Part shown: in pieces, positions 13,799-38,536 of the stretch | Numbering within the stretch: the stretch's first letter is position 1 | Layout: each line of letters begins with the position of its first letter | NCBI GenBank assembly: GCA_024743095.1 | Contig: JANSXF010000006.1 | Span: 1 to 64,000 of the forward strand | Length of the DNA: 64,000 nt | Source of the DNA: Flavobacteriaceae bacterium | GTDB taxonomy: Bacteria; Bacteroidota; Bacteroidia; Flavobacteriales; Flavobacteriaceae | Direction of reading: 5' to 3' | The notes under the pieces: generated by a model | What the model saw: the letters and a program-made list of their open reading frames with translations, nothing else | Told to the model about the DNA's origin: nothing | Databases searched by the model: none | Position numbers and translations under genes: made by a program

Positions 13799-14647
13799 TT
13801 ATGCGTTTTGGCAAATTTGTTTCTGTCTACCCAAATGTTCAACTTCAAGCTCGACAATATCATCCAACCTCAGGTATACCTGAGGCTTCTGGCCCATGCC
13901 AACACCTGGGGGAGTCCCTGTAAGAATCAGGTCGCCCTCTTCCAAGGTCATGAACTGGGACAGGTAATGAACAATGAAATGGACGGAAAAAACCATGTTG
14001 TCGGTATTGCCCGATTGCATAAGCTGGCCATTTACCCGAAGTTTCATATCCAGGTCTTGGGGATTTTCAATGTGGTCCGCATCCAACAAAAAGGGTCCTA
14101 TGGGCGTAAAATTGTCAGATGATTTGCCCTTTGTCCATTGGCCACCTCTTTCCAATTGGAAAGCCCTTTCAGAAACATCGTTGGCCAAACAATACCCTGC
14201 AATACACTCCTTGGATGCCTCTATCGAATCCAAATATCTGGCGTTTTTACCAATGACCACTCCCAGTTCCACCTCCCAGTCGGTCTTTTCACTTCCCCTG
14301 GGGATTAAAATGGGGTCGTAGGGCCCGACCACGGTATTGCTCCCCTTTTGAAAGATAATTGGCTCTGTAGGAATCGGCATCCCAGCCTCTTTGGCGTGGT
14401 CCGAGTAATTCAATCCTATGCACATCACCTTTCCCGGCCTTGCAATTGGGGCTCCCCATCGTTCTTCTTCCCCTACCAATGGTAAATCTTCTCCTCTGGA
14501 GATCAATTCCTTCACCTGGGTAGGGCCATCGGCCGCAAAAAAATCCCGATCAAAATCCTTAAAGTAAGCCGATAGGCTGTATCGTTTATCATTTATCAAA
14601 ACTCCTGGCTTCTCCATTCCCGTCTTCCCGTATCGTATCAATTTCAT
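13799..14647 (-). CDS. Fumarylacetoacetate hydrolase-family protein
   Basis: A 282-residue cytoplasmic enzyme of the FAH fold, which hydrolyses or hydrates diketo or 2-keto-3-deoxy acids in a Mg2+-dependent way. The start at 14647 (MKLIRYGKTG) is the family start; the frame is open further upstream but that part does not look coding. Motifs: KVMCIGLNYSDHAKEAG, the metal ligands of EVELGVVIG, ANDVSER, GPFLL and the C-terminal LTGTPPGVGMG. In non-phosphorylative L-fucose and L-rhamnose degradation, a protein of this type cleaves the 2,4-diketo-3-deoxy acid. That role fits the dehydratase and SDR in this operon but is an inference. It is the last gene of the operon, 78 bases after the Gfo/Idh gene and before a terminator. 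The coding sequence holds an 18-base perfect palindrome at 13868-13885. Confidence 0.88.
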   Translation of the reverse strand: MKLIRYGKTGMEKPGVLINDKRYSLSAYFKDFDRDFFAADGPTQVKELISRGEDLPLVGEEERWGAPIARPGKVMCIGLNYSDHAKEAGMPIPTEPIIFQKGSNTVVGPYDPILIPRGSEKTDWEVELGVVIGKNARYLDSIEASKECIAGYCLANDVSERAFQLERGGQWTKGKSSDNFTPIGPFLLDADHIENPQDLDMKLRVNGQLMQSGNTDNMVFSVHFIVHYLSQFMTLEEGDLILTGTPPGVGMGQKPQVYLRLDDIVELEVEHLGRQKQICQNA

Positions 14648-14725
14648 GTTGAATATATTTTGTTGTTTAAAAAATAATAGCGTTCCCGTCGCACGATCAT
14701 TGTCCGTGCCAATCAAAGGATTTCT

Positions 14726-16153
14726 TTAAAAATCCCGATAATCCCCTGACAAGTATTGGTTGGCCTTTTCTTCCTTGAACCGTGCTGCTTCCGCATCCCA
14801 ATGCAGGGTCTCACCAGGAAAACGGCCAGCAATGGTGCCCAGCAAAATGGTCTCGGTCAACCGTGCCCCATAATCGAAAGGTGCCGTAGTGGTGGCCTTG
14901 CCCAAGCAGGCATCCACAAACTGGTGGTAATGCTTTGGACCTTCGGTGTCGTAGTTCCGGATGGGCTCGCCCATATTGTTGACCGCCGATACCTTGGCAA
15001 TCTCCCTGGAGATGTCCACATACTTGCCCTTCACGATCTTTTTGGGCAACTGCATGAAGTGGGGAAGCAACAACCTGCCTTTTTCACCAACGAACATGGC
15101 ACCCTGCTCTGGCAGTTCGCCCTCTCCGGCCACCTTGGCATCGAGCGACATCTTATCGGCTACACTCTCCTCTTTTTTCGGTTTTGTGTCCACTGTATTT
15201 TTAGCTCCGGGCAAAACCAGATCTTCATGCATATCAGGAACACCGGGGCCATCATACCAAATCCACTTAAAGGATTTTGAGGTATAAGGAGTAGTTGGAA
15301 ATTCATAAGTAACCACATTGTTTTCCGGGTAGCTGAATCCGTTGGAGGGCCTACTTTGTGTGGTTATGGTGGTCGGCACGTCCAGTTGCAGGGCATTGTA
15401 GGGGGTGTCGAAGATATGGACCCCCATGTCGCCCAAGGTGCCGCAACCGCAGTCCATCAATTTTCTCCAATTGCCCGGATGGTACATGTCCTCTTTATAG
15501 GGTCTTTCCTTGGAAGTTCCCAGCCAAAGGTCCCAGTCCAATTGCGCAGGGACGGTGTCCTCCCCTTCAGGAAGTGGGCCATCATATCCCCAGTTCTTGG
15601 GCGACCAAGCATGCACGGTGTGCACCTTTCCGATGATTCCCGATTGGATCAGCAAGGTGGCCAGTTTGTAATCGTAAAAGGAGTGTACCTGGATGCCCAT
15701 CTGGGTGACCAGTCCCTTTTCGGCCGCCATCCTTTTCATTTCCCGTGACTCGGACACATAGTGGGTCAACGGTTTTTGGCAGTATACGGGCTTGTCCATC
15801 CCCATGGCCATCATCGAGGCCGGGGCATGGGTATGATCTGGTGTGGAGACCACCACGGCATCGATCTCGTCCTTCATTTCCTCCAACATGGGACGATAGT
15901 CGAAAAAGACCCGGGCTCCGGGGTGCATCTTGTGCGCCGCCGAAAGGTTCACGGCATCCACGTCGCACAGGGCCACTACATCCACCGCGGTATGCGATGA
16001 GATGGCCTTGAGGTCCTCCATGCCCATGTTGCCCACACCGATATGGGCCGTTCTCAGTCTTTCCTTTGGGAAACCTGCTTTTAAAATAGAAGGTGCCAAC
16101 ATGACCCCTAGGGCTCCCACACTGCTTTTTTTGATGAATTCTCTTTTGTCCAT
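14726..16153 (-). CDS. Gfo/Idh/MocA oxidoreductase, exported
   Basis: A 475-residue NAD(P)-type sugar oxidoreductase. The N-terminus (MDKREFIKKSSVGALGVMLA) resembles a Tat-type signal with KK in place of RR. Exported Gfo/Idh proteins of Bacteroidota often look like this, with the cofactor loaded before export. The Rossmann motif is HIGVGNMGMEDL and the substrate-side lysine is in CQKPLTHY, where many relatives have EKP. Length is that of the long, exported (GH109-like) branch. It sits 16 bases after the DUF1080 gene. Work on Bacteroides showed that such oxidoreductases make 3-keto-glycosides that DUF1080 proteins then split. A similar periplasmic oxidation-cleavage step is a reasonable inference here. 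Confidence 0.9.
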   Translation of the reverse strand: MDKREFIKKSSVGALGVMLAPSILKAGFPKERLRTAHIGVGNMGMEDLKAISSHTAVDVVALCDVDAVNLSAAHKMHPGARVFFDYRPMLEEMKDEIDAVVVSTPDHTHAPASMMAMGMDKPVYCQKPLTHYVSESREMKRMAAEKGLVTQMGIQVHSFYDYKLATLLIQSGIIGKVHTVHAWSPKNWGYDGPLPEGEDTVPAQLDWDLWLGTSKERPYKEDMYHPGNWRKLMDCGCGTLGDMGVHIFDTPYNALQLDVPTTITTQSRPSNGFSYPENNVVTYEFPTTPYTSKSFKWIWYDGPGVPDMHEDLVLPGAKNTVDTKPKKEESVADKMSLDAKVAGEGELPEQGAMFVGEKGRLLLPHFMQLPKKIVKGKYVDISREIAKVSAVNNMGEPIRNYDTEGPKHYHQFVDACLGKATTTAPFDYGARLTETILLGTIAGRFPGETLHWDAEAARFKEEKANQYLSGDYRDF

Positions 16154-16169
16154 GGTTAGGTATTGGAGG

Positions 16170-16979
16170 TTATAGTTTCTTGATCTTGATGTTGCGGAAC
16201 CAGATGGGACTAGAATGGTCCTGCAGGGCGATGTAGCCCGTTTTGAATTTTCCGTAATCCGGGGCGTTGTCCCATTTTCCTGAAGCCTTTTTGGTATTCC
16301 ATTCTTCGGACCAAGGCACGAACTCCAAGAGTTTCTTGCCGTTGAGCCAGTGCTCCACCTTTTCGGGGGTGAACACGATCTTGGATGAATTCCATTCCCC
16401 TACGGGATTCAACTGTTTCTGCGATTCGTCCGCCACGTGCATGGCATAGTCGGCACCGGTCCTCTGCCAGTCCTGAAGCAGTTCGGGGTGCTCGGCACCA
16501 AATTGCGAGTTGTATCCGGTAAGGTCGTGTATCCTGGCATAGTTCTCGTCGTCGATCAACTGGTATTCCGGGGCCACCACTGGTGGGCCTTCATAACCTT
16601 CTTTCACATGGTAGAAGATACCGCTGTTGGCCCCCTCGGGAATCTTCCACTCCAGATAGAGCTCGAAATTGTCGAACTCCTCGGCACCATATATGATGTC
16701 CTTTCCACCTTTATAATCCTGTTCCATGCCCAGTTCGGTATCAAAGGTCAAAATGCTGTCCTTGATGGTCCAACCGGGGGGCAGGGAATCCATGTTGTAC
16801 CCCCTCCAGCCCTCAAGGTTGCTGCCATCGAAGAGATAGGTCCATTCGGATTTCTTCCCTTCAGGTTGGGCGGTTGTTGTTTCTTCCGTTTGTTTCGATT
16901 GTTTCTTGCAAGCGATGAACAATGCCGTCCCTACTAAAAGTGTGAAGACACTCAGCAATTTTCTTTGATTGGTTCTCAT
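16170..16979 (-). CDS. DUF1080 (3-keto-disaccharide hydrolase-type) lipoprotein
   Basis: A 269-residue lipoprotein with signal and lipobox (ALFIACKK). The mature domain, from about residue 45, is a concanavalin-like beta-sandwich of the DUF1080/3-keto-disaccharide hydrolase family. Its typical elements are WTYLFDGSNLEGWRGYN, EFDNFELYLEWKIP, ANSGIFYHVKEG, the central PVVAPEYQLIDDEN and the end GYIALQDHSSPIWFRNIKIK. Members with known activity split 3-keto-glucosides. It lies between the exported Gfo/Idh gene and the PQQ dehydrogenase gene, so a periplasmic oxidise-then-cleave module is likely. Substrate unknown. Confidence 0.9.
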   Translation of the reverse strand: MRTNQRKLLSVFTLLVGTALFIACKKQSKQTEETTTAQPEGKKSEWTYLFDGSNLEGWRGYNMDSLPPGWTIKDSILTFDTELGMEQDYKGGKDIIYGAEEFDNFELYLEWKIPEGANSGIFYHVKEGYEGPPVVAPEYQLIDDENYARIHDLTGYNSQFGAEHPELLQDWQRTGADYAMHVADESQKQLNPVGEWNSSKIVFTPEKVEHWLNGKKLLEFVPWSEEWNTKKASGKWDNAPDYGKFKTGYIALQDHSSPIWFRNIKIKKL

Positions 16980-17036
16980 TTATGAATTTGAATTATGATT
17001 GTATAAAGTTTTAGATTTTATCGCGTCCCCTTTCTG

Positions 17037-18644
17037 TTATTTTTCAGCATACGCTGTCCTTGCCTTCAATACCTCGTCAGCAGTGATTTTTCCTTCTCCC
17101 TCAGTAAATTCACCTTTGATGAAAGTCAGGATGTCGGCAATATCCCCATCTGATAAAAAGGCAAATGATGGCATAGCTTCCCCGTATCCATCCGTAGCAC
17201 CTTTGGCCGACCTTGCGGCTCCTCCCAGCGTAAATCGGATCAATCCCTCATTCGTGCCATTCACAATGTCTGAGCCCATCAATGGTGGAAAGGAATTTTC
17301 GACCCCTTTTCCATCGGTTTTGTGACAAGCGGCACAATACATATTGTAGCTTTTTTTGCCTGCTGTATCGGCCATTTTCACTTCTTCCCCGCTTTCTTTT
17401 CCTTTGGAAACCTGTTTGAGCACTGCTGCATTAGCAGTATCCCCAACTCTGAAGATGCGTATGATCCTATCGTCCGTTTCTTTTGGAAAGCCCTCTTTAG
17501 GATTCCAATCCTGATTGCTCGTAGAGATGTAAACATCTCCCTTGGGGGAAACACAGAGGTCCCTGATCCTTCCCAATATAGTATCAAACAAGATGGTTTC
17601 AGATAGTATGGAGTCCCCTGTACCGTTCAGTTTCAACACCCGAAGATCACTCTCTTTCAAGGTAACGAGCAGCAATGCATTGTTCCATTCAGGAATGGAT
17701 CTTGAAGCGTAATAATCGATTCCTGCCGGGGCTATGGTCGGGGTCCAGGCCTTCATGGGTTCCACTACAGCGGAATCTTTGCAAAAGGATGGGTTTCCCG
17801 TGACATCATTGCAATATCCACTGACTGTCGGCCATCCATAATTACGTCCCTTTTGCATGAGGTTTACCTCGTCATCCGTGGCATCCCCATGTTCGGAGGT
17901 GTACAAGAGTCCATTGGCCCCGTAGGCCATTCCCTGTACATTGCGCTGTCCCCATGACCACACTGGACTGTTGGGAAAGGGATTGTCATCGGGAATGGAA
18001 CCATCCAAGTTGAAGCGCAATATCTTTCCGTTCAATGATTTCACATTCTGGGCATTGTCCACATCCGGTCCAATGTCACCCGTGGCCCACATCAGCTTTT
18101 TATCTGGGGAAATGGTCAACCGTGTGCCATTGTGTGCAGTATGTCCGGGAATCTCCAATATCGTTTCAGGATTGGTCAGTGTATCATTGGCATATTCATA
18201 TCGCATCAATCTTGAGGTGATTGTTTCTTCTTTTTGGGTGGTGTAGTTCAAAAAGACATAAGGTGATTCCTTAAAATCGGGATGAATCGCCAATCCCAAT
18301 AATCCTGTGGTCCGTTTCCTGAACACATCCTGTATTTCCAATAAAACATGGACTTGTCCTGTATTCGGATCCAAACGGCTTACACGTCCACCCTGTTCGG
18401 TGAACCAAATGTTATCATCGGGTCCCCATGTAATCTCCCAAGGCACATCCAGATTTTCAGCCACCGTACTTCTACCGATAATGGTCGAGTCGAGGGCAAT
18501 CCACTCTTCTATCAGGTTTCCCGAAGAATCGTGGAAAATGTCCGCCGTTTCACTCTTTTCTTTATCTGTTTTGCACCCCATAATGAGTAGACACCCTAGG
18601 AGATACAGCACATGTTTTTGATATCCTTTCTTCATTTCTTCCAA
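17037..18644 (-). CDS. PQQ-dependent sugar dehydrogenase fused to cytochrome c
   Basis: A 535-residue lipoprotein (lipobox LIMGC). Residues 50-400 form the soluble-glucose-dehydrogenase-type beta-propeller: DVPWEITWGPDDNIWFTE, the catalytic region HTAHNGTRL, WSWGQRNVQGMAY, and the PQQ/Ca2+ segment SEHGDATDDEVN. A C-terminal cytochrome c domain carries the haem site CAACH and a distal Met in GEAMPSF. The fusion lets electrons from aldose oxidation leave through its own haem to the respiratory chain. The product should be a lactone or sugar acid, which suits the lactonase and sugar-acid dehydratase encoded nearby. A second Met at 18635 is an equally good start. Confidence 0.9.
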   Translation of the reverse strand: MEEMKKGYQKHVLYLLGCLLIMGCKTDKEKSETADIFHDSSGNLIEEWIALDSTIIGRSTVAENLDVPWEITWGPDDNIWFTEQGGRVSRLDPNTGQVHVLLEIQDVFRKRTTGLLGLAIHPDFKESPYVFLNYTTQKEETITSRLMRYEYANDTLTNPETILEIPGHTAHNGTRLTISPDKKLMWATGDIGPDVDNAQNVKSLNGKILRFNLDGSIPDDNPFPNSPVWSWGQRNVQGMAYGANGLLYTSEHGDATDDEVNLMQKGRNYGWPTVSGYCNDVTGNPSFCKDSAVVEPMKAWTPTIAPAGIDYYASRSIPEWNNALLLVTLKESDLRVLKLNGTGDSILSETILFDTILGRIRDLCVSPKGDVYISTSNQDWNPKEGFPKETDDRIIRIFRVGDTANAAVLKQVSKGKESGEEVKMADTAGKKSYNMYCAACHKTDGKGVENSFPPLMGSDIVNGTNEGLIRFTLGGAARSAKGATDGYGEAMPSFAFLSDGDIADILTFIKGEFTEGEGKITADEVLKARTAYAEK

Positions 18645-18663
18645 TTGGTTTTCCTCATAATTT

Positions 18664-19668
18664 TCAATACATACTGTTCAACGGAATTTCTTCGCCCCCT
18701 TGTCTTTTACTATCATGGGCAGCCTGCATAAAGGCATATATTTCCATGGTTTCCCGTGGTGATACCGGTGCAATTCCTGTTTCAAAAAAATCGATGATCT
18801 TAACCAACAAGGGGCGGTACCCCTTGTACTCCCCCACCAGGGCATTTCCATTTTCGCCAAAGGCAATACCCCCAAAACCTATATCTCTTTGTCGCTCTCC
18901 CCGAAAGGTTCCCAATCTCCCATCTTTCCAAACTCCTGTTACCACTTCGGTAGCATCCGTAGAAATACAATTAACCGTTTCACATCCTGTTCCCATTAGG
19001 GTAAATAACAATTCTACTCCGTGTATCCCATACCAGAACAAGTCTGGATGCGAGGGTTCTATGTTCGCGGGTCCATAGGTATTTGCCCCCATCACCTTTC
19101 CCACCAATTCACCTCCTACTATTTCCGCAGCCTTGTCGGTATAGCGCAAGGATGACGCAGAAAAAATGGGTGTTCCATACTTTTCCGACAACTCCACGAT
19201 AGCTTTGATATCGGTCATGGAAGCAGCAAAAGGCGTATCCATAAACACCGGTTTTCCATACTTCAGAATCTTTTTAGCCTGTTTCAAGCGGAGGTTGCCA
19301 TCATGGGTCTCCAGAAGCACAACATCTACTTGATTCATAACTTCATCGATACTGCTGGTGATATGGACCCCCATTGCAGCAACTTCTTCCGTAAATTTTG
19401 GTATACGCTCACGACCGGATTCAATGTCTCTGCTTCCCCAAGGATAGGCAGCGACCACCCTGTAGCCCATCAAATCCAATCTGGGTTCATCCGCGTTGAG
19501 TATTTTGGTGAATGCTGGTGCATGGGAGGTATCCAAACCGATTATACCCACTCTTTTCCCCTTTTCCATCATGCTGAACAGGGGCGAACCAGCCACCTCT
19601 GCAAGACCAAGGCCCAGACCAGCCAATAATGTTGTTCCCACAAAATTTCTTCTCGTACCCATTTTCAA
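18664..19668 (-). CDS. Gfo/Idh/MocA-like protein with Tat signal and altered EKP motif
   Basis: A 334-residue member of the Gfo/Idh/MocA fold. A twin-arginine signal (TRRNFVG, then LLAGLGLGL) marks it for folded export. The nucleotide-binding loop reads GIIGLDTSHAPAF, not the usual GxGxxG. The EKP motif is replaced by FMDTPFAAS, so the lysine that normally contacts substrate and cofactor is missing. It may be a binding or accessory protein, or an enzyme with other chemistry. The second Met at 19662 is a possible start. It lies 16 bases after the DapA-like gene and 19 before the PQQ dehydrogenase gene. Confidence 0.8.
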   Translation of the reverse strand: MKMGTRRNFVGTTLLAGLGLGLAEVAGSPLFSMMEKGKRVGIIGLDTSHAPAFTKILNADEPRLDLMGYRVVAAYPWGSRDIESGRERIPKFTEEVAAMGVHITSSIDEVMNQVDVVLLETHDGNLRLKQAKKILKYGKPVFMDTPFAASMTDIKAIVELSEKYGTPIFSASSLRYTDKAAEIVGGELVGKVMGANTYGPANIEPSHPDLFWYGIHGVELLFTLMGTGCETVNCISTDATEVVTGVWKDGRLGTFRGERQRDIGFGGIAFGENGNALVGEYKGYRPLLVKIIDFFETGIAPVSPRETMEIYAFMQAAHDSKRQGGEEIPLNSMY

Positions 19669-19684
19669 TTAAAAGATGGTCGGT

Positions 19685-20752
19685 TTATGAAAGCCACCTA
19701 TCCAGGTTTTCTTTGACGAATGTATCGTCATTTAAATGTGGATAGGCCCCATAGACCCTATCAATTTCTTTCACCTGTCCTTCGGATAGGACTTCGTTTT
19801 CATTCAAGGTCCAAACACCCTCCAACAGTCCCTGTCGCCTAAGGACTTCATGGATTCCTGGAATGCATCCCTCAAAAGCATTGGCCGCGTCAAAAAAGGC
19901 GGCATTGCTATCTGTGATCTCAATGGCCTTGGTGAGCGTTCCTTGTGTATCATGTTCAAATTTTCCATTGTGTATCTGGTGGAGCAAATCCACTGCAGAT
20001 TTGGTCCAGACCGCCCAATGGCCCAGCAGACCTCCCACAATACGTTTTTTAATGGTTCCTCGTTCTGTTCTTATCTTGAACTCCGACAAAAGGTCTACTA
20101 GAATGTTATCATCATTTCCAGTATACAGTGCTATTTCATATGCTCTTCCCGACTCCACTACCCCCCGTACCACATCCAGTGTCTGATAACGGTTGAAGGG
20201 AGCCATTTTTATGGCGATGACATTTGGAATACTTGCAAAGCCCTTCCAAAACTCCACATCCAATTTTCTACCTCCCACGGCTGGCTGAAGGTAAAAGCCA
20301 ACCAATGGGATCACTTTGGCAACTGTTCGACAGTGTTCAAGGATTTCTTCGTTGGAAGCGCCCTTGAACGCTGCTACACTGATCAATGCTGCGTGATATC
20401 CCAACCCAACTGCGGTCTGGGCCTCGACAATGGCCTGTTCTGTTTTACCAATGATACCGGCTATCCTGATGATTGGCCTATCGTTTAGTTTGGAATATCG
20501 GTCAAATTCCTGCCTGGCGATATCCAGTACGGTACCGTAAAGGTTATGTTCCGGCAAACGGATTTCAAACTGGGTAGAGTGTACCCCAACGGCCACACCT
20601 CCGGCCCCGGCGTCCAAATAATATCGCATCAAGGCCCTTTGTCGGGTCTCATCCAGTTTTCGATCCTTTGTCAGGGCAAGGGGTAATGCAGGAATCACCA
20701 TGCCTTTTTGAAATTCACCCAGAATATTGTAGGGTATCTCGGTATAATCCAT
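19685..20752 (-). CDS. DapA/N-acetylneuraminate-lyase-superfamily aldolase-like enzyme
   Basis: A 355-residue TIM-barrel enzyme, longer than classical DapA (about 290). The Schiff-base lysine is present in VIAIKMAPF and the fold pattern is clear (GMVIPALPLALTKDRKLD at the start, GAGGVAVGVHSTQFE after the second strand). The canonical GTTGE loop is replaced by VGVHSTQFE, and the tyrosine loop reads VGFYLQPAVGG. It is therefore not dihydrodipicolinate synthase but a sugar-acid or keto-acid aldolase/dehydratase of unknown specificity. Cytoplasmic. It is placed between the epimerase and Gfo/Idh genes. A 2-keto-3-deoxy acid is the best guess for its substrate. Confidence 0.8.
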   Translation of the reverse strand: MDYTEIPYNILGEFQKGMVIPALPLALTKDRKLDETRQRALMRYYLDAGAGGVAVGVHSTQFEIRLPEHNLYGTVLDIARQEFDRYSKLNDRPIIRIAGIIGKTEQAIVEAQTAVGLGYHAALISVAAFKGASNEEILEHCRTVAKVIPLVGFYLQPAVGGRKLDVEFWKGFASIPNVIAIKMAPFNRYQTLDVVRGVVESGRAYEIALYTGNDDNILVDLLSEFKIRTERGTIKKRIVGGLLGHWAVWTKSAVDLLHQIHNGKFEHDTQGTLTKAIEITDSNAAFFDAANAFEGCIPGIHEVLRRQGLLEGVWTLNENEVLSEGQVKEIDRVYGAYPHLNDDTFVKENLDRWLS

Positions 20753-20815
20753 CTCAGTCAGTTAAAATTGATCTATCTATTTTCCACCAGCATCTTATCC
20801 AGCGCTGGTATTATT

Positions 20816-21856
20816 TTAATACTTTCCGTCCCTTACCTCAAAATGGGTGGGCTTATCCAAGGTCTTTTTCTCCATCTTCATCCAATTGGCTGTCCAGTCG
20901 ATAACCTTTTCTATGGCTTTCTTAGGTTCACCAAAGAGTTCGAACGACTTAGTAGCGTTGTTCAAAAGAGCGGTTTCCGATTCCACCCCCGTAAACCGGG
21001 GGCTAATCCCAAAATGTTTTCCAAACTCCTCCGCCACAGCACGCACGGACAAGGTTTCTTCTCCGGTTACATTGATGATGTTGGCAGGAACCGAGGTCTG
21101 TTCTAGGGAACGCAGCACCATTGTATTGGCATCTCCCTGCCATATGGCATTGAAATAGCCCATTTCCAAGTCCACTGGCTCGTTGTTTTTCACCTTGGTG
21201 GCCACATCCACCAATACTCCGTAACGGGGTTCCACTGCATAATTCAATCGAATCAATGCGGTTGGTGTATTGTTCTTGCTGCTGCCGTATTCGAACATCC
21301 GCTCGCGCCCAAGGCATGACTGTGCATATTCCCCCACGGCAATGGGCCTGTCCGTTTCTTTGGAACCCCCGGATGTAATGGGGACCATAGGATACACACA
21401 ACCTGTGGAATAGGCCACTATCTTGGAATTTCGGAACCGCTTGGCAACCATTCCGGGCAAAAGGGCGTTCATGGCCCATGTCATGGACAAATTCGTCTCG
21501 GACCCAAACTTCATCCCTGCCAAAAAGAATACATTCTTGGCTTCGGGCAGGCTGTTGAGAAAATCCTCATCGAGCAGGTCACCCTTTATGGTCTCTATTC
21601 CCAAGGATTCAATATAATTCTGTTCATTGGGATTACTAAAACGGGATACCCCGATAATCCTCTTTGTTACACCGGCCATCTCACAGGCCCGTTTGGCCAT
21701 GTGCGCCAACGAGGGACCTATTTTGCCGCCAATGCCCAAGAAAATGATATCCCCTTCCAATTGCTTGAACATTTCCACAGTGGGGACATCTGGTTGTGAC
21801 AGGAGTATTTCCAAGGTTGATTCGTCCAACATGCTATCTTTTTCCATCTTCATCAT
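20816..21856 (-). CDS. NAD-dependent epimerase/dehydratase-like protein lacking the catalytic Lys
   Basis: An extended SDR-type protein of about 346 residues. Start chosen at or near 21856 (further Met codons at 21853, 21847 and 21832), because translation upstream would lie inside the M20 gene. The Rossmann loop is FLGIGGKIGPSL and the fold runs through FFLAGMKFG and STGCVYP. The catalytic YxxxK reads EYAQSCLGRERM, with Cys in place of Lys, so normal SDR acid-base chemistry is doubtful. It is translationally coupled to the M20 deacylase gene, which ends at 21858. Role in the pathway unknown; sugar or sugar-acid modification is likely. Confidence 0.75.
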   Translation of the reverse strand: MMKMEKDSMLDESTLEILLSQPDVPTVEMFKQLEGDIIFLGIGGKIGPSLAHMAKRACEMAGVTKRIIGVSRFSNPNEQNYIESLGIETIKGDLLDEDFLNSLPEAKNVFFLAGMKFGSETNLSMTWAMNALLPGMVAKRFRNSKIVAYSTGCVYPMVPITSGGSKETDRPIAVGEYAQSCLGRERMFEYGSSKNNTPTALIRLNYAVEPRYGVLVDVATKVKNNEPVDLEMGYFNAIWQGDANTMVLRSLEQTSVPANIINVTGEETLSVRAVAEEFGKHFGISPRFTGVESETALLNNATKSFELFGEPKKAIEKVIDWTANWMKMEKKTLDKPTHFEVRDGKY

Positions 21857-21857
21857 T

Positions 21858-22973: not shown

Positions 22974-22977
22974 ACCA

Positions 22978-26707: not shown

Positions 26708-26722
26708 ATCTTTATCTTATTG

Positions 26723-27907: not shown

Positions 27908-27910
27908 ATA

Positions 27911-29266: not shown

Positions 29267-29370
29267 GGATGTGACTCGTAAAGGATGTAAATGTCAGGTG
29301 AACTTAATTGAACATCAAAATACAATGACTACCATTGAATGCATTTAATGAATACTAAATTATGTATTTT

Positions 29371-29380
29371 TTGTATACAA
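29371..29380. promoter_or_regulatory. Candidate GntR operator between the operon and the lactonase gene
   Basis: A perfect palindrome TTGTATACAA, inside a shared 12-mer beginning TTTTG, in the 139-base divergent gap between the aminotransferase and SMP-30 genes. It has the TNGTATACNA pattern of UxuR/ExuR-type GntR regulators. The same decamer recurs at 38771. Confidence 0.55.
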
Positions 29381-30256: not shown

Positions 30257-30892
30257 TCAAAACTCAATAGCCTCTCTTTCTCCCCGGTCCAAATGCCCTA
30301 TGAGCGTATCGACTGATTGTCCAAAATCACCCTTTTTTAGTGCCTCGACAATCTTACGATGCTCCATATCGGTTTGCTTATAATCATCCATATGACTCAA
30401 CGCATTACCTAATTTAAGATGAAACAACGGGATATTGCTGTTGTTGTAGAATTGAATCAAGCGTTCATTTCCTGTTGATTCAATGATTTTTTCATGAAAC
30501 CGGACATCTGCCTCACAAGCACCGCCAAAGTATCCTTTTTCCACCATGGATGTGAAATCATCACATATCAATTCAAGCTCTTTAATGACTTCCTTGTCCC
30601 TTTTATTGAACAATATTTTCAAAGCGCCGACCTCGATCAACTCACGTAATTCTCGTATTTCCTTTATGTCGTCCGGAGTAATTTTTTTTACAAAGCATCC
30701 ACCCCTTTCCCCGAATTCGACCAAATGCTCCCCAGCCAATCGCATAAATGCCTCACGGATGGCGACCCGGCTTACATCAAGTTTTTTTGCCCATGCACTT
30801 TCAACCAACCTCACACCCCCTACGAGTTGATTGGACAATATTTTCTTCCGTATTTCCAAATACGTTTTATATGACAACGAATCTTCCTTCAT
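30257..30892 (-). CDS. GntR-family regulator with FCD ligand domain
   Basis: A 211-residue transcription regulator. The winged helix at the N-terminus (LVESAWAKKLDVSRVAIREA, then FMRLAGEHLV) binds DNA; the rest is an FCD alpha-helical ligand domain (REL, then RFHEKIIESTGNERLI, a metal/organic-acid site in relatives). UxuR, ExuR and other regulators of sugar-acid use belong here. It lies between the lactonase and the lyase genes. A half-site pattern typical of the family stands 41 bases before its start, suggesting autoregulation. Confidence 0.92.
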   Translation of the reverse strand: MKEDSLSYKTYLEIRKKILSNQLVGGVRLVESAWAKKLDVSRVAIREAFMRLAGEHLVEFGERGGCFVKKITPDDIKEIRELRELIEVGALKILFNKRDKEVIKELELICDDFTSMVEKGYFGGACEADVRFHEKIIESTGNERLIQFYNNSNIPLFHLKLGNALSHMDDYKQTDMEHRKIVEALKKGDFGQSVDTLIGHLDRGEREAIEF

Positions 30893-30932
30893 TTTGTATT
30901 CGTTTTAACCCAAAAATAGGTAAATGAACTTG

Positions 30933-30943: not shown

Positions 30944-30997
30944 TTTTATCATTAATTCCAGGCAACCTCCTGGTCTCACCTATACCACCTATATAAT

Positions 30998-33748
30998 CTA
31001 ATTTGCATCCGGCAGGATGGATTCCGAGGGAATATAGGATCGTCCGGGTCCAACAAAATATTCTCCTCCGTTGCTCCTGAAACTTACTACATTTTTCCCA
31101 AAACCAACTAGAATATTGGCATTCAATTTGCTTTTTTTATCGTATACGTTCCAATATCCTTCTTTGATTCCCGCAAAAATTACTTCTACTTCCTTTCCTT
31201 CATCAGGAATGGTCACCTTGATGGACTCATCCAGTAATTCCTTTCCTTTTGAAATGTAAACCATTTTATCCGCCAAGCGGACAAGATAATAGGTGTCAAA
31301 CTCTTTGAAATCAACCCTGAGTGCTGTGGCTTCTCCATCCACCATCTGAAAGACTGTCAGGAATTTATCATTTTTACGTTCCTTTTTAGGGGAGTACATG
31401 ATTCGATAGCCGTTGGCTTCAGGCCAATTGGAATTGACTTCATATTTGGTTCCGAAAACATGGGTCGATTCTTTCCCGCCCAATATCTGCAGCATACGAT
31501 CTTCAGGCTTGGGAACCAACATATCCACATAAGTTTTCCCCACTTTTCCATCCAGCTCACTGCTCAATATTAACCTATTTTCAAGTGTTGCCGGAGCATT
31601 CAGGGTGTTAATCTGCCAGTATTTCTGAAACGTAGCGTCCTGGACTTGCATGTCGTCCGTCAAGATTATGGCCGCAGGCACATCTTGTCGCTCTAGGTTC
31701 AAGAACAGGAAACCCCTGGAATAAGACTCCATTTTTGAGGTATATGCAGCCGTTAAATCCATATTATAATAGCTAAAGGATGGGACATCCGTATCCTTAC
31801 CCGTTGCCGAAGATCGTACAAAACCAACATTGAACCACGGATCTGTTTTTGTCTCTTCGGGGGTTTTGGGAAACCTTTGGCTAAATCGCGTTCCGCCATC
31901 GTTGGTCTTTGTCCGAAACAATAGTTTTTCATCAGGATCAACAGCAAGCATTAAACTGTGCGAAATAGATCGTTTATTAAAGTTGAAATCATACGGAGAA
32001 CCGTAGGACAAATAAAGCCCGAGATCACCCACTTGTATTCCCCGGAAATAGATCTGCAAAGCTCCTGCATCAGCATGCTGGTGGTTACCAAAATGGTATC
32101 CCCCTCCTTTGATTTCCGCCACCACATTGTCGCTGTCCTTGTTTTGGTCCCATCCGGTCCGGGCGACCATGGACCCCAACACAGGTCCAAAATCCTTGGT
32201 CAAGGGAAGCTGGCCTAAATCAAAATCTGCCTTTAGTTGGGGGTCGTTGAGCAATAGGAACAGGACCGGATTGTTCGACAGTGCCCCTTGTTTATAGAAC
32301 TCCCCCTTGATCAATGGGTTCCCGGAAAATGCATAGCACAAAAGCATGGTCTGCGGATTGCTCCAGTAAAAGTCATCACTACTGGAGTATTTGACACTGA
32401 ACATATCGCCATCCCTCAACATTTTACCATCGGGTGTGCGCATGTACAGCCAATAATCGGTCATGTTCTTGATGTTGTCATCAAAGACGGAGTATCCCAA
32501 CATTCTATAGTACAGCCATACCGCATGCATTTCCCAACCAAAGCGATATCCGCCATAATCTATTCCTTGGTTATGCCTTGGGGATTGGTACTCAAACTTG
32601 CGCATGGGCACCAATTGTTCCAAAATGGTATACGAAACATACTTATAGGGTTCGGGGTCCTCATCATATACGGCCAAACTCCAGGCCAACATATCCCTAC
32701 AGATCTGGGCCTCGTTTCCGTGTCCGTTTATGATGCTCTCCAGCCCGTAGAACGGGGGCCAACCAATTTCCATGTCACGCACCAGGCGCTTAAAGTCCTT
32801 TTGTAAGGTGGATTTGGTTTCTTCATCCATCAACGGATAGCACCAATCATAGACCAATGCCCCTGTATAGAGTGCCCTGCCCACTTCGCGTGTAATGTCG
32901 CCATAGGTAACATTACCAAATTCAAGGACCGAGAGGTAGTCCACGAGCAACTGCACAGCTTCCTTGCCGACCGTGGCATCTTGGGTCATCAGGAAATAAA
33001 ATGCCTTTTGCTCTATGGCCTTCTCCAATTTTTCATTGTGGAATATTTCCTTATCCAAATCAAAATCGAACGAATAGGGACTCAACGCCGCATTCTTCAC
33101 CTTATCCCAAGCCTCTTTGTTTTCCGAGGAAGTCAAACGGCTTTTTACAATGGGCAGGCTCTCCTTGTTCACCCACAGTCTTGGCCGATCCGTGATTGGC
33201 TTTATTTTTGGCACATAGACCTCTGCTTCTGGAGGTGCGGTGGGGGCCACATAGGGTTTTATGGTAATGGTGGAAAGGGCCAAGTTGTTTGGCAGCCAAA
33301 TTTTCAGCTTTTGCTGCTTTCCAGAAATCTCAAATTTTCCCAATTCCTGATGACCTCCTTTGTAGCGATCGAACACGATACGTTTGGTTCTTCTTGAATC
33401 ACCCAACTGAAAAAAGGCATTCACCGTCAAGAGACCTGTTGTATCCTTCTTTTTCAAGGATTTCATATCGATTGGATATGCCTCTGATTCCAAAACATAT
33501 ATACCTTCTTGATGCACTTTCAATTCTACCTCGACATCGGGCCGAACCCTTTGATGGGGATTGGTAAGATGCTTTTTTAGGGCAACACCATAGGTTTCCT
33601 CTTCCGCTACTTTTACCTTTCTTGTTTTAGTGGTTTTTTCGTTGATATCCCCTTTATGCAATGGAAGGACAGAAGAAATGTTCTCCTGTCCTACAGCTTG
33701 CAATGTCCACAATATAAAGGCTACTATTAAAATATACTTATTGAACAT
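30998..33748 (-). CDS. Heparinase II/III-family polysaccharide lyase
   Basis: A 916-residue secreted protein (signal ending AVGQ). It has an N-terminal beta region, a helical toroid at about 190-490 with the INGHGNEAQICRDMLAWSL and PRHNQGIDYGGYR segments, and a heparinase II/III beta-sandwich from about 540, with GYHFGNHQHADAGALQIYF holding the metal and catalytic histidines. Such lyases cut uronate-containing polymers (alginate, heparinoids, others) by beta-elimination. No sulfatase, kinase or KduI-type gene is near, so the usual 4-deoxy-uronate pathway is not visible. It is 65 bases after the SusD gene, cotranscribed. Confidence 0.88.
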   Translation of the reverse strand: MFNKYILIVAFILWTLQAVGQENISSVLPLHKGDINEKTTKTRKVKVAEEETYGVALKKHLTNPHQRVRPDVEVELKVHQEGIYVLESEAYPIDMKSLKKKDTTGLLTVNAFFQLGDSRRTKRIVFDRYKGGHQELGKFEISGKQQKLKIWLPNNLALSTITIKPYVAPTAPPEAEVYVPKIKPITDRPRLWVNKESLPIVKSRLTSSENKEAWDKVKNAALSPYSFDFDLDKEIFHNEKLEKAIEQKAFYFLMTQDATVGKEAVQLLVDYLSVLEFGNVTYGDITREVGRALYTGALVYDWCYPLMDEETKSTLQKDFKRLVRDMEIGWPPFYGLESIINGHGNEAQICRDMLAWSLAVYDEDPEPYKYVSYTILEQLVPMRKFEYQSPRHNQGIDYGGYRFGWEMHAVWLYYRMLGYSVFDDNIKNMTDYWLYMRTPDGKMLRDGDMFSVKYSSSDDFYWSNPQTMLLCYAFSGNPLIKGEFYKQGALSNNPVLFLLLNDPQLKADFDLGQLPLTKDFGPVLGSMVARTGWDQNKDSDNVVAEIKGGGYHFGNHQHADAGALQIYFRGIQVGDLGLYLSYGSPYDFNFNKRSISHSLMLAVDPDEKLLFRTKTNDGGTRFSQRFPKTPEETKTDPWFNVGFVRSSATGKDTDVPSFSYYNMDLTAAYTSKMESYSRGFLFLNLERQDVPAAIILTDDMQVQDATFQKYWQINTLNAPATLENRLILSSELDGKVGKTYVDMLVPKPEDRMLQILGGKESTHVFGTKYEVNSNWPEANGYRIMYSPKKERKNDKFLTVFQMVDGEATALRVDFKEFDTYYLVRLADKMVYISKGKELLDESIKVTIPDEGKEVEVIFAGIKEGYWNVYDKKSKLNANILVGFGKNVVSFRSNGGEYFVGPGRSYIPSESILPDAN

Positions 33749-33813
33749 TTTCTACTTCAAATTAAAAAGGCCAAGGCCATAGGCAGCTGTCCAAAAATGG
33801 ACAGCCAAAATAC

Positions 33814-35430
33814 CTACCAACCTGGGTTCTGCGTCAAGGCCGGGTTCACATCAATTTCTGTTTGTGGAATTGGCCATAGATAGTAATGGTCGGGGAAGCC
33901 CCTCTGTCTTATATTCACTCCGGTAAACTCGGTCATCCATACCCCATCGACAACGTCTTTGGCGATGCCCCATCTGCGGATATCGGAGTAGCGCTGTCCT
34001 TCACCGCAAAGTTCCACCATACGCTCATGTCTGATCCTCTCCCGCATCACATCTTGACTCAAGCCAGAAGGCAGATCGGGCAAACCGGCCCTTTCGCGAA
34101 CAGCATTGACTGCATCATAAATGCTCTGGTCGCCAGGACTTGCCTCGTTCTTTGCTTCGGCATACATCAAAATAACATCGGCCAACCTGATGAGGGGGAA
34201 ATTTTGGGGCATATTGTTCTGCAAGGTATAGACGGAGCCTGTTTCCACAAATTTCCTCCATGCATAGCTTCCAGCCGTCCAAATTGGAACATAGGCCAAT
34301 GGATCCGATGTATCCACGGGAAACTTATAAAGATACTCCATATCGTTTCTGCCCACAAATGTAGACCACGGAACCACAATAGACTGCTGCATACGGGGGT
34401 CCCTATTTTCAAAAAGCTCTCTTACCGATTCTTCATCTTGCCAATCTTCAGGGTCGTTCGGGTCAAAAGTATCCCCTCCGGCGTCGGTAAAGTTTGCAAA
34501 ATCGAACGGTGTCCCATCGATCATTTCATAGGCATTGACCAATTTAGGGGTAGGCCTGGTCCGCTGCGAACCAGAAGTCGCCCCCATGGCATTACCATAG
34601 TTTCGGTCCGTGGCAATTCCATACCCTTGTTCAGCAATATACTGCACATCAAAAATGACCTCATCGTTATTGTTCCCTGCTACTTGAAACAAGCTATGGA
34701 AATCGTCTATCAAAGACCTGTCGCTGTTTTCCATTAGGTATTTGAAATCATCCGCGGCCTCTTCATACTGTTCGGCCCAAAGATGTGCCTTACCTCGCAT
34801 CGCCAATGCCGCCCACTTTGTAGCACGGCCTTTGTTGGACTGGTCATAGTTTTCGGAAAGTAAATCAAAAGCATCGGTCATATCGTTCACGATAAAATTG
34901 TATACCTCTTCCTCTGTGTTCCTTGGCTTATAGGTCTCGTCCACGTTCATTGCGGTTTCATATAGAGGCACACCTCCAAAGAAATCCCATAACTTGAAGT
35001 AAAAATAGCCCCTGAAGAACTTGGCCTCGCCCAAAATGCGATTCTTTGTGGCCTGGTTCATTTCAATATCGGGCACATTTTCCAAAACGGTATTTGCCCG
35101 GTAGATGCCTTTGTAGAATATCCCCCAAGAATTGGAGTAAAACGAGGCATTGGAAGGAAATGCCCCCGTTGTGAGACCAGTTGCCCAAGACTGATAGGAG
35201 ATATCGGTAAAGTCATCCATCATACCATAGATCACTATGCTGTTGGTGAATTCACGGTTGGCATCATAAAGGGCATTCACACCCATGATGGCATCTTGCT
35301 CTGATTGCCAGAATCCTCCTTCTGATAGGCCCACCAACGAATCCCTGTCAAGGAAATCATCGCTACATGAGCCCAAGGTAAAAATGGAAAGCAATGCCAG
35401 TAGTATTTTATTTATCTTATTAATCATCAC
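33814..35430 (-). CDS. SusD/RagB-type surface lipoprotein of the lyase locus
   Basis: A 538-residue lipoprotein with lipobox TLGSC, followed by SDDFLDRD. The helical TPR-like half contains ILGEAKFFRGYFYFKLWDFFGG and the C-terminal domain has RHERMVELCGEGQRYSDIRRW and the IPQTEIDVNPALTQNPGW ending: full-length and typical. It is seven bases from its SusC partner and captures the polymer at the cell surface. Confidence 0.95.
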   Translation of the reverse strand: MMINKINKILLALLSIFTLGSCSDDFLDRDSLVGLSEGGFWQSEQDAIMGVNALYDANREFTNSIVIYGMMDDFTDISYQSWATGLTTGAFPSNASFYSNSWGIFYKGIYRANTVLENVPDIEMNQATKNRILGEAKFFRGYFYFKLWDFFGGVPLYETAMNVDETYKPRNTEEEVYNFIVNDMTDAFDLLSENYDQSNKGRATKWAALAMRGKAHLWAEQYEEAADDFKYLMENSDRSLIDDFHSLFQVAGNNNDEVIFDVQYIAEQGYGIATDRNYGNAMGATSGSQRTRPTPKLVNAYEMIDGTPFDFANFTDAGGDTFDPNDPEDWQDEESVRELFENRDPRMQQSIVVPWSTFVGRNDMEYLYKFPVDTSDPLAYVPIWTAGSYAWRKFVETGSVYTLQNNMPQNFPLIRLADVILMYAEAKNEASPGDQSIYDAVNAVRERAGLPDLPSGLSQDVMRERIRHERMVELCGEGQRYSDIRRWGIAKDVVDGVWMTEFTGVNIRQRGFPDHYYLWPIPQTEIDVNPALTQNPGW

Positions 35431-35437
35431 TTTTCTT

Positions 35438-38400
35438 TTAAAATGTTAAATTCAGTCCAACTACCCATTGCTTCATCAAAGGATATGAAATACCCGCATT
35501 TTCAGGATTGTACCCATCAAATTTCGTGAACGTAAAGTAGTTCTCAAGGTTAGTATATATCCTTAGTCTGTCCACTTTAAATTTAGAAGTCACTTCCTCG
35601 GGCAAAACGTACCCCAACTGCAACGATTTGATTCGGAAGTACGATGTATCATACAACCAGTAATCACTATAAGCCGTATTCAATGCTGATCCCGATGTAT
35701 GTAGCCTAGGATATACCGTGGAAGGGTTTTCTGGTGTCCAACGGTTCAGAATCTCTTTGCGCTGCAAAAAGCCCTCGTTTATATTGAAGGTATTGAAGCC
35801 GTCATTTCCCCAATATTGCTTTACGCCTTCCGCTCCTTGAGCCACTACATTCAAGTCAAAACCTTTGTAGCCAACATTGAAATTGAAGCCATAGGTTATT
35901 TTAGGCAGGGCCGAATAGTCCTTGACCACTCTATCTTGGTCATCGAAGACCATGTCCCCATTAGTATCCTTATACAACATGTCCCCAGGTCCAGGCGTAC
36001 CTCCAACATAGGAACCAAAGGTATAACCATTTGCCAATAACGCGTCAACCTCGGACTGATCTTGGATAATCCTGTCAAATTCCAAAAGATAAAAACTGTT
36101 GAACGCACTGCCTTCTTCCGTAATGGTCGCAGCATTTATGGATTGGTCACCGTTAAACTTGGTCACATTGTTCTTCACGGTGGATAGATTGCCCGCTATA
36201 TTATAGGTAAAATCCTGGCCAATATTTCCTTGATATCCCAATTGGAACTCAAAGCCGGAATTGTCCATTTCCGCTATATTTTGCCATGGAGGTGAAAAAT
36301 TGCCCAATACCAAGGGAATTGGAATCTTGGTCAAAATATCGCTGGTTGTTTTATTGTAATATTCCATGGACAAGTTCAGTCTTCTGGACAACAATGATAA
36401 GTCCAAACCAACGTTTGTGATGGTCGTGGTCTCCCATTTCAACCTACTGTTTGCCAATTCAATCGGTGCAACCCCCTGCTGTAGTGAACCACCAAAAGGG
36501 TAGAGGTAAGACCCATACACTTCTTGGTATGAATAATCACCAATCCTATTGTTACCAAGTTTTCCCCAAGAGCCCCTTATTTTAATCTCGTCAAAGATAT
36601 TTTTCAACCCACTGACAAAAGATTCTTCCAAAATTCTCCATCCTGCTGAAAATGATGGGAAGAACCCCCATCGGTTCTCCTCAGCAAAACGGGAAGAACC
36701 ATCGTAACGAGCATTGGCCTCGAACAAATACTTTCCTTTGTAGTTATAGTTCAGCCTCCCGAAATAGGACCTCAGGGCATCATCTGTCCCCGACCCATTG
36801 GCCGATTCCAGATTGGTTCCGGCATCCAAGATATAGATGGCATCGTCCCCCAAAATATCGTTCTTCTTCGCATTGAATCTATCCAAACGGTTGTATTGCT
36901 GATCAAAGCCCACCAAAGCGGAAAGACTGTGGGTCCCATTGAAGGTTTCGTTGAAGCGCAAAAGTGAGGTCACCACAGTGGTGTAACTTCTAGTGCTCTG
37001 ATTAAAGAGACTATTGATACTAGGCCTTTTTTGGTATTCAAAATCAGTCTGGAGATTCCAAAGGGAGAATGGCCTAACGTAGATCCAATCCCTATTGTTG
37101 GCATAGTTCAATCCAAAGCTGTTTTCCCATTCCAGGTTCTTGAAGATATCAATGATACCATAGAACTTCAGGCCCAACTGCAATTTTTCGTAATTCCCTC
37201 TGGCATTGTCCACCAAGGCTCTAGGGTTTGACCCTTCGGGAAGACCTTGGAACATTTCCCCTCCATATCTTCCATCCTCATAAACTGGGATGACGCCTGG
37301 TGTTGTGTTTCGTATACTTGAGAAAAAGCTCCCTACATCAATAGGTCCTCTATCCGACCATGAACCAAAAACATTTCCGCCTAAGGTAAAGAAGTCCTTT
37401 ACTTTTGCATCCGCATTTATACGGAAGTTATATCTGGTATAGTCAGACCTGTCCAAGATTCCTTCGTTTTTCAAATAACCTAATGAAATGGCGAAGTTGC
37501 CTTTTTCACCTCCTCCACGAACGGACAGATTGTGCTCTGTGAGTATGGAGTTTTTCAGCATTTCATCATACCAATCCGTATTGGGATACAGTGGATTGCC
37601 ATTTGCGGATTCCCTTCTCCATTGATCGATAAGGGGAATGGGGTATTTTTCCATTCCTTCAGATTCGTTGACCAACTCCATATGGGTGGCCATATCCGAA
37701 ATAAAGTCTATCCTTTTGGCGGCGGATACCTGCCCCGTATATCCACTATAGGTGACCTTGAATTCTTCTCCTTTACCTCTTTTAGTTGTGACAAGGATTA
37801 CACCATTCGCCGCCCGGGACCCGTATATGGCCGATGACGATGCGTCTTTAAGCACAGATATGCTTTCCACATCATTGGGGTTCACATCATTTAGATTTCC
37901 AGGAATACCATCGATGACCACCAAAGGCGAGGCATCGTTCATGGTTCCCCTACCCCTTACCAATATATTGAAACCTTCTGCACCTGGAGCGGCCGAGGTT
38001 TGCGAAACATTCAAGCCTGAACTTAAACCTACCAAGGCAGATGAAAGGTTCATATTGGGGCGACTGCTAGTGGATTCGTTGAACACCACTGAATTGACAG
38101 CACCGGTAAGGTTCTCTTTCTTTTGGGTGCCATACCCCACCACAATAACCTCATCCAATTCTTTTGGTGCGGGTGCCAACACCACCAAGGCAGAATTCTC
38201 GGCCTGAAGCATTTGGTCCATAAAGCCTACCAGACTAAATTGTAGGACATCGCTTTCCTCCCCTGCTATGGAGTAGACCCCATCCGCATTGGAAAGCACT
38301 GACTGGCCTGTGGTCAAATTAAATATTTCTACATCTGGAAGCGGATTGCCGCTGGTGTCCGTAATCCGTCCGTTTATGGTATTCTGTTCATTAAAAGGCA

Positions 38401-38536
38401 ATGCCCCTTTTTCGCTTTCCATGGCCTGCAACTTCAATGGGGCCATTACATTGAAGTGAAACGCAAGAACAACAAGAAGGACTACCTTTGTTTTGCTCCA
38501 CATCTTGTTTTCTCTACCTTTAAAGTCTGTTTTCAT
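35438..38536 (-). CDS. SusC/RagA-type TonB-linked transporter of the lyase locus
   Basis: A 1032-residue outer-membrane transporter. It has a carboxypeptidase-regulatory-like domain at about 50-120 (NGRITDTSGNPLPDVE), then the TonB box and plug with VVGYGTQKKEN, VRGRGTMNDASPLVVIDGIP and SVLKDASSSAIYGSRAANG, and a barrel ending in WVVGLNLTF. The signal peptide fits better from Met12 (start 38503). It is the first gene of a SusC-SusD-lyase transcript, with a palindrome-rich promoter region upstream. Confidence 0.95.
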   Translation of the reverse strand: MKTDFKGRENKMWSKTKVVLLVVLAFHFNVMAPLKLQAMESEKGALPFNEQNTINGRITDTSGNPLPDVEIFNLTTGQSVLSNADGVYSIAGEESDVLQFSLVGFMDQMLQAENSALVVLAPAPKELDEVIVVGYGTQKKENLTGAVNSVVFNESTSSRPNMNLSSALVGLSSGLNVSQTSAAPGAEGFNILVRGRGTMNDASPLVVIDGIPGNLNDVNPNDVESISVLKDASSSAIYGSRAANGVILVTTKRGKGEEFKVTYSGYTGQVSAAKRIDFISDMATHMELVNESEGMEKYPIPLIDQWRRESANGNPLYPNTDWYDEMLKNSILTEHNLSVRGGGEKGNFAISLGYLKNEGILDRSDYTRYNFRINADAKVKDFFTLGGNVFGSWSDRGPIDVGSFFSSIRNTTPGVIPVYEDGRYGGEMFQGLPEGSNPRALVDNARGNYEKLQLGLKFYGIIDIFKNLEWENSFGLNYANNRDWIYVRPFSLWNLQTDFEYQKRPSINSLFNQSTRSYTTVVTSLLRFNETFNGTHSLSALVGFDQQYNRLDRFNAKKNDILGDDAIYILDAGTNLESANGSGTDDALRSYFGRLNYNYKGKYLFEANARYDGSSRFAEENRWGFFPSFSAGWRILEESFVSGLKNIFDEIKIRGSWGKLGNNRIGDYSYQEVYGSYLYPFGGSLQQGVAPIELANSRLKWETTTITNVGLDLSLLSRRLNLSMEYYNKTTSDILTKIPIPLVLGNFSPPWQNIAEMDNSGFEFQLGYQGNIGQDFTYNIAGNLSTVKNNVTKFNGDQSINAATITEEGSAFNSFYLLEFDRIIQDQSEVDALLANGYTFGSYVGGTPGPGDMLYKDTNGDMVFDDQDRVVKDYSALPKITYGFNFNVGYKGFDLNVVAQGAEGVKQYWGNDGFNTFNINEGFLQRKEILNRWTPENPSTVYPRLHTSGSALNTAYSDYWLYDTSYFRIKSLQLGYVLPEEVTSKFKVDRLRIYTNLENYFTFTKFDGYNPENAGISYPLMKQWVVGLNLTF

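Follow-up and report, generated by a model that had tools for sequence, protein, structure and literature searches.

Organisation of the locus

The window analysed here is a 64,000-nucleotide stretch of a marine Flavobacteriaceae bacterium (contig JANSXF010000006.1 of assembly GCA_024743095.1, positions 1 to 64,000) that harbours a large catabolic locus. Its core is a minus-strand run of 13 genes (13799-29266), preceded on its 5' side by genes for a SusC/SusD pair, a heparinase II-like lyase and a GntR regulator on the same strand, with a lactonase gene in divergent orientation. A first-pass annotation had proposed a tightly packed 13-gene operon completed by these uptake and regulatory genes; all of the open reading frames (ORFs) are recovered at the same positions and on the same strands, the family names are borne out by matches to Pfam, NCBIfam and PDB entries (for the ceramidase through a profile match to 2zws), and the shared 33-bp element described below supports the view of a single locus. 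With ORF starts as listed, the spacings within the operon lie between an overlap of 4 bp and a gap of 63 bp. The largest, between the DapA-like and epimerase-like genes, assumes that the latter starts at 21853 rather than 21964, whilst the gap at the FAH hydrolase gene becomes about 78 bp if translation starts at Met24 of that ORF.

The gene order is the same, up to the contig limits, in Allomuricauda taeanensis (L025), Flagellimonas hadalis (L026, the locus of genome G051) and F. amoyensis (L027, the locus of genome G043), with proteins that are 78-98% identical. Among the matches listed, these are also the named genomes whose proteins match the DapA-like protein best (91-92%). The FAH hydrolase gene falls outside the contig ends in all three loci; G043 has a 96% homologue on a separate contig, and the best in G051 is 49%. 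Judged by its sequence, the locus is real, conserved within the genus (Allomuricauda/Flagellimonas) and composite, with a function that is predicted. The two older blocks of which the operon is assembled can be told apart by their distribution: module A, in the order class III PLP enzyme, enolase-type dehydratase, SDR, ceramidase-fold hydrolase and symporter, and module B, in the order M20 deacylase, epimerase-like protein and DapA-like protein.

Module A

The first product of module A is a class III, glutamate-1-semialdehyde (GSA)-type, pyridoxal phosphate (PLP) enzyme (27911..29266, minus strand; PF00202, Aminotran_3) in which Lys285 is present. Its top NCBIfam models are GSA aminomutases, all of which it scores below cut-off; for hemL/TIGR00713 (GSA 2,1-aminomutase) it reaches 322.5 of the required 527.3 bits. 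The adjoining gene (26723..27907, minus strand) encodes an enolase-superfamily (MR_MLE) acid-sugar dehydratase that passes the NCBIfam galactonate dehydratase model PRK14017 (329.6 vs 311 bits), from which its substrate type is predicted. The dehydratase carries D201, H203, E227, E253, D276 and H303, which we take to be metal and acid-base residues. It is followed by an SDR dehydrogenase (25931..26707, minus strand; PF13561) with Tyr159 and Lys163; these, like the lysine of the PLP enzyme and the His/Glu pair of the FAH hydrolase below, are presumably catalytic. The last gene of the module encodes a sodium:solute symporter of the SSS/SSF family (22978..24543, minus strand; TIGR00813, 289 bits over 184).

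Between the SDR and symporter genes lies that of a neutral-ceramidase-fold hydrolase (24540..25934, minus strand), a 464-aa protein without an evident signal peptide. A profile built from three sequences of this family matches the neutral ceramidase structures 2zws (7.1e-12) and 4wgk (6.5e-7), although the protein misses the cut-off of Pfam Ceramidase_alk PF04734 (23.1 vs 32.1 bits). The homology to 2zws concerns the N-terminal catalytic domain including the HTHxGP motif, and H113, H115, H217 and E394 are invariant across the three sequences. Unlike neutral ceramidase, the hydrolase is shorter, lacks an evident export signal and is encoded among sugar-acid genes.

The five genes of module A are also found, with their order unchanged, in G130 and G258, genomes from other families of the class. 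Identity to the window is 69-73% for the PLP enzyme, 81-82% for the dehydratase, 48-50% for the SDR, 44-46% for the ceramidase-fold hydrolase and 69-70% for the symporter. G130 carries copies with equal identities at both ends of one contig, which is read as assembly overlap. The searches for module A were centred within Bacteroidota and used genome samples that are partly overlapping draws from larger groups, with few candidates scored per genome. The ceramidase-fold hydrolase was found in three of 296 sampled phylum genomes, the PLP enzyme in three of 395 (identical sets at E<=1e-130 and E<=1e-90) and the dehydratase in three of 395 sampled class genomes, in each case G000, G130 and G258. 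Among 397 sampled genomes of the family the hydrolase is present solely in the window's own genome, and module A is therefore rare and patchy. Upstream of module A in G258 lie a SusC/D pair and a partial relative of the GntR regulator (56%), so the association with uptake and regulator genes recurs. On a Mesorhizobium plasmid, the gene of a 50%-identical aminotransferase has as neighbours those of an IlvD/Edd dehydratase of sugar-acid type, a sugar ABC transporter, an SDR and two amidohydrolases, an independent parallel that speaks for the route proposed below.

Module B

Module B is composed of an M20 deacylase of the ArgE/DapE family (21858..22973, minus strand; TIGR01910, 232 bits over 217.6), an extended-SDR epimerase-like protein (20816..21853, minus strand) and a divergent member of the DapA superfamily (19685..20752, minus strand). 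The M20 protein carries H72, D104, E137, E138, E164 and H346, presumably its metal and catalytic residues. The epimerase-like protein scores barely above the cut-off of the Pfam Epimerase family (23 bits), its start being set at 21853 to match that of its 345-aa homologues, and its family is distinctive in that the lysine of the YxxxK motif is missing from all 73 aligned rows (C in 53, T in 9, A in 7, V in 3 and S in 1). The DapA-like protein (DHDPS, 35 bits) is far below the cut-off for 4-hydroxy-tetrahydrodipicolinate synthase (TIGR00674, 19.7 vs 206 bits); it keeps the fold, the Schiff-base Lys182 and Tyr154.

Relatives of the DapA-like protein (E<=1e-20) occur in seven of the 99 related genomes searched, counting the window's own; 59 of the genomes drawn as relatives are assigned to the window's genus. 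The M20-epimerase-DapA order is found without module A at four other loci of the genus (G058, G032, G014 and a second locus of G043). A wider survey covered the best 80 of 585 confirmed DapA relatives, with loci from many phyla, to which all counts out of 80 refer. Of these loci, 73 contain an epimerase-family gene and 13 an M20 gene, whereas module A genes occur in three, all from this genus. Modules A and B were seen jointly in four Allomuricauda/Flagellimonas genomes only, among the genomes and loci examined.

The partners of the epimerase-DapA pair are varied; the names of these neighbour clusters come from scans of single representatives or from reading of the sequence. In Paenibacillus and a few others the pair is followed by SDH_alpha-like (11/80) and SDH_beta-like (9/80) clusters, and of these serine dehydratase-like pairs the one scanned (L058) scores above both NCBIfam cut-offs for L-serine ammonia-lyase (323.7 vs 243.2 and 233.9 vs 161.2). 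M20-type amidohydrolases follow the pair in eight loci, a class III GSA-like enzyme neighbours it in KSB1 (L037), and on plasmids of Alphaproteobacteria, Streptomyces, Rhodococcus, Mesobacillus and Aquisphaera it is accompanied by GNAT, Gfo/Idh or transporter genes. The recurrence of partners with nitrogen chemistry (M20, serine ammonia-lyase, GNAT and the L037 class III enzyme) suggests that module B acts on an amino or N-acyl substrate. No assignment of a function to the epimerase-DapA pair was found in literature searches.

Two further observations concern the surroundings of module B. The second M20-epimerase-DapA locus of G043 (L019, 13581-19885) includes genes for an SIS/AgaS-family isomerase, which is under its cut-off, PfkB and a class II aldolase, neighbours that suggest a galactosamine-type partner route. 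An Nramp-family transporter gene is located at 39052-40275 of the window, and such genes lie near M20-epimerase-DapA in 13 of the 80 loci (e.g. L028-L036, L064 and L069), inside the same-strand run in 12.

FAH hydrolase and exported dehydrogenases

The distal gene of the operon (13799..14716, minus strand; PF01557) encodes an FAH-superfamily hydrolase with a probable start at Met24, predicted to act on an acylpyruvate (2,4-diketo-3-deoxy acid). Among solved structures it is most closely related to L-2,4-diketo-3-deoxyrhamnonate hydrolase (PDB 8gsr, 3.9e-79), and it contains the HxxE pair His107/Glu110. It falls below the cut-off of NCBIfam NF053535 DhyDRhmHlse, the 2,4-didehydro-3-deoxy-L-rhamnonate hydrolase model (337.3 vs 500 bits).

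Four genes between the FAH hydrolase and module B encode proteins with exported or redox features. The first is an exported-looking Gfo/Idh protein (14726..16153, minus strand) with an RR motif by eye, which is related to the glycoside 3-dehydrogenase BT_2158_fam (NF058561) but reaches only 292 of the 750 bits of its cut-off; Lys127 of its xKP motif is kept. It is followed by a DUF1080 (3keto-disac_hyd) protein (16170..16979, minus strand) with a lipoprotein-like N-terminus by eye, which passes PF06439 (168.2 vs 26.8 bits), and by a GSDH-family β-propeller of the soluble glucose/sorbosone dehydrogenase type fused to a C-terminal cytochrome c (17037..18644, minus strand; PF07995, 262 bits, and PF00034). 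The fourth is a second exported-looking Gfo/Idh protein (18664..19668, minus strand; PF01408), a companion of DapA in 15 of the 80 loci. Its DKP-motif lysine is replaced by threonine (DTP) in four of 17 aligned rows, those of the window, L025, L026 and L027, and is kept in the other 13. A DUF1080 protein beside Gfo/Idh dehydrogenases points to 3-ketoglycoside cleavage of the BT2157-2159 type, as described in PMC9007349. The window differs in having a GSDH-cytochrome c partner and a Gfo/Idh protein far under the BT_2158_fam cut-off.

Uptake unit and regulator

The uptake unit comprises a SusC/RagA outer-membrane transporter (35438..38536, minus strand; TIGR04056, 866 bits), a SusD-like lipoprotein (33814..35430, minus strand; PF07980 and PF14322) and a heparinase II-like lyase with a signal peptide-like N-terminus (30998..33748, minus strand). 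The lyase aligns with heparinase II (HepB, PL21; PDB 2fuq, 4e-95) over 687 residues, and H343, E346, Y398, R402, H556, H558 and H597 are identical in the two proteins. We take these positions (His/Glu, Tyr/Arg, His-x-His and a distal His) to be the catalytic and metal residues of 2fuq. Despite this full-length similarity, the lyase misses the NCBIfam HepB cut-off (408.9 vs 600 bits), there is no sulfatase among the Pfam matches of the scanned window proteins, and GH88 matches in the window's genome are below cut-off only. Lyase relatives lie near epimerase-DapA in two of the 80 loci, Victivallis (L062; 42% identity, 3.7 kb away) and Paenibacillus albidus (L098; 31% over 279 aa). The unit is completed by a GntR/FCD regulator (30257..30892, minus strand; PF07729 and PF00392). 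The divergent lactonase gene encodes an SMP-30/gluconolactonase-like protein (29406..30221, plus strand; PF08450, 126.6 bits).

A 33-bp bipartite element, composed of TTGTATACAA, a 12-13 bp AT-rich spacer and TTAGTATTCAT (TTAGTATWCAT), occurs exactly twice in the window by pattern scan, once in the operon/lactonase intergenic region (29348..29380, minus strand) and once upstream of susC (38748..38780, minus strand). G051 and G043 have the element at the same two places with identical spacing, and L025 has it at the operon, its contig ending short of susC. The pattern was derived from the very copies it then matched; in a scan of the window and 158 partly overlapping locus records (2.18 Mb) the records gave 11 matches, every one at the two places. 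The window contains exact TTGTATACAA at two positions, one in each of these intergenic regions, against 0.07 occurrences expected in the window under a first-order model. The presence of the element at both promoters in the window and its relatives provides moderate evidence that the uptake genes and the operon form one regulon in this genus. The element is a candidate operator to which the GntR regulator would bind.

Proposed pathway and alternatives

It is tentatively proposed, at somewhat less than an even chance, that the locus is one regulon in which a polymer-uptake unit is joined to a composite catabolic operon encoding a Route III-like route for an amino or N-acyl sugar acid. The PL21-like lyase would cut an acidic uronate-containing polymer and SusC/D would import the pieces, as the analogy with PL21 lyases and polysaccharide utilisation loci suggests. 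In the periplasm the Gfo/Idh-DUF1080-GSDH/cytochrome c group may oxidise and open the remaining glycoside, the lactonase may yield the free acid, and the sodium symporter would bring in a sugar acid bearing an amino or N-acyl group. Within the cytoplasm, acyl groups would be taken off by the ceramidase-fold and M20 hydrolases and the nitrogen by the class III PLP enzyme. The galactonate-dehydratase-like enzyme would form a 2-keto-3-deoxy acid, which the SDR would oxidise to a 2,4-diketo acid, itself split by the FAH hydrolase into pyruvate and a hydroxy acid. The epimerase-DapA pair would be a separate, widely distributed helper module for parallel or later cleavage. The substrate, the order of the steps and the position and chemistry of the nitrogen are those that we infer.

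Two described systems bear on this proposal. Route III for L-rhamnose, L-fucose and pentoses uses a dehydratase, an SDR and an FAH hydrolase, for which a His/Glu pair is named in PMC6336799. All three families and the HxxE pair are encoded in one operon here, the SDR as a putative 4-dehydrogenase; the window adds the amide/amine enzymes, the DapA pair and the lyase with SusC/D, and its FAH hydrolase is under the NCBIfam cut-off. In the marine ong pathway of Pseudoalteromonas prydzensis, as set out in PMC9537276 and PMC12017989, oxidised GlcNAc (GlcNAc1A) is directly deacylated and deaminated after SSS import by a D-aminoacylase and a D-amino-acid deaminase. The likeness, inferred on the window's side, extends to TonB-dependent uptake, an SSS symporter (here the TIGR00813 match), direct N-deacylation, PLP-dependent removal of nitrogen, no prior phosphorylation and a 2-keto-3-deoxy acid product. 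The window differs in its M20 and ceramidase-fold hydrolases, its GSA-type enzyme, a lyase in place of a lytic polysaccharide monooxygenase or hexosaminidase, and the extra dehydratase, SDR and FAH hydrolase. Family scans of the 13 operon proteins found none of OngB D-aminoacylase, OngC D-amino-acid deaminase, RidA or KdgK. No paper that assigns this set of genes to a pathway or substrate came up in the literature searches, in agreement with the first-pass annotation, which knew of no described pathway with the full set.

Several observations weigh against the proposed regulon and route. The SDR reaches no NCBIfam equivalog. Despite its module A, G130 has no DapA relative at E<=1e-20; of its FAH relatives, the best is interrupted by two stops as read and the second is 36% identical. 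FAH is unlinked to module A in both G130 and G258. The window's genome holds two KDPG-aldolase-type genes, so a phosphorylative end is possible, and two locus-carrying relatives have strong GH88 genes elsewhere in their genomes, so independence from GH88 is not a general feature of the route. The 10-mer with one mismatch allowed occurs five times in the window against 2.34 expected, a weak excess that seven of 100 shuffles equal. Across the genome the core TNGTATACNA shows no enrichment (61 places, against 65 for a control); it is absent from the G130 stretches and is found in G258 at two places, neither at module A.

The rival explanation that survives best, though it is rather doubtful, holds that several unlinked pathways lie under one promoter, one for each monomer of a single polymer: module A for a sugar acid, module B for an N-acyl serine-like amino acid or an amino sugar acid, and the exported dehydrogenases for a neutral glycoside. 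Module A occurs without B, and B without A in 77 of 80 loci; the SDH_alpha-like, SDH_beta-like and M20-type companions of epimerase-DapA, the scanned pair that exceeds the L-serine ammonia-lyase cut-offs and the galactosamine-type neighbours in G043 fit such stacking, whilst the tight packing of the genes, without internal break in four genomes, argues against it. A plain non-phosphorylative uronate or aldonate pathway, with the amide/amine enzymes as side activities or without a role in the main flux, is unlikely: dehydratase, SDR, FAH hydrolase, lactonase and symporter would be enough for Route III, but the PLP enzyme and the ceramidase-fold hydrolase are precisely the genes kept with the dehydratase in other families. 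It is more improbable still that the class III PLP enzyme is an ammonia-lyase acting on a vicinal amino alcohol, since, although lyase activity exists among class III members and the L037 neighbour matches (R)-1-hydroxy-2-aminoethylphosphonate ammonia-lyase (127 bits, under the cut-off of 525), that model is not among the top 25 for the window's enzyme, whose best models are aminomutases and transaminases.

A pathway for a sugar acid that also carries an N-acyl or amide group, as first suggested, thus remains the best available reading, with an N-acyl sugar acid as the predicted substrate. The galactonate-dehydratase-like enzyme, SDR and FAH hydrolase beside amide/amine enzymes speak for it, but the assumption that all 13 genes serve one pathway is not supported, as module A stands alone in two genomes (one without a DapA relative) and module B is mostly found without it. 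The dehydratase, ceramidase-like hydrolase and aminotransferase recur together in G130 and G258, and the DapA-like protein is separable from them.

A broader joint claim is possible, though less likely than not. Module A would be a new mobile pathway for an aldonate bearing an amino or amide group, from which a ceramidase-fold amidase and a GSA-type PLP enzyme would remove the nitrogen, either ahead of the enolase-type dehydratase or after it; in this locus it would be coupled to a PL21-like lyase opening a uronate polymer that contains nitrogen. Module B, in which a Schiff-base enzyme of DapA fold is paired with an SDR lacking the catalytic lysine, would be a widespread two-enzyme system without assigned function, present in Bacteroidota, Paenibacillus and Planctomycetota as well as on Streptomyces plasmids. 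If true, this would describe a marine route for respiring a nitrogen-bearing acidic polysaccharide without sugar phosphorylation and a function for ceramidase-fold proteins other than ceramidases, and the epimerase-DapA pair, present in many phyla, would stand out as a tractable target with strong gene-context clues.

Other genes in the window

Elsewhere in the window, a C5 cytosine DNA methylase gene is followed by that of a MutH-domain protein (42041-44702), the two ORFs overlapping in a manner that resembles a restriction-modification pair. A second SusC/D pair lies behind a metallophosphatase with a PA14 domain (2147-8868), and the other strand encodes a 1102-aa FG-GAP/ASPIC-UnbV protein at 9483-12791.

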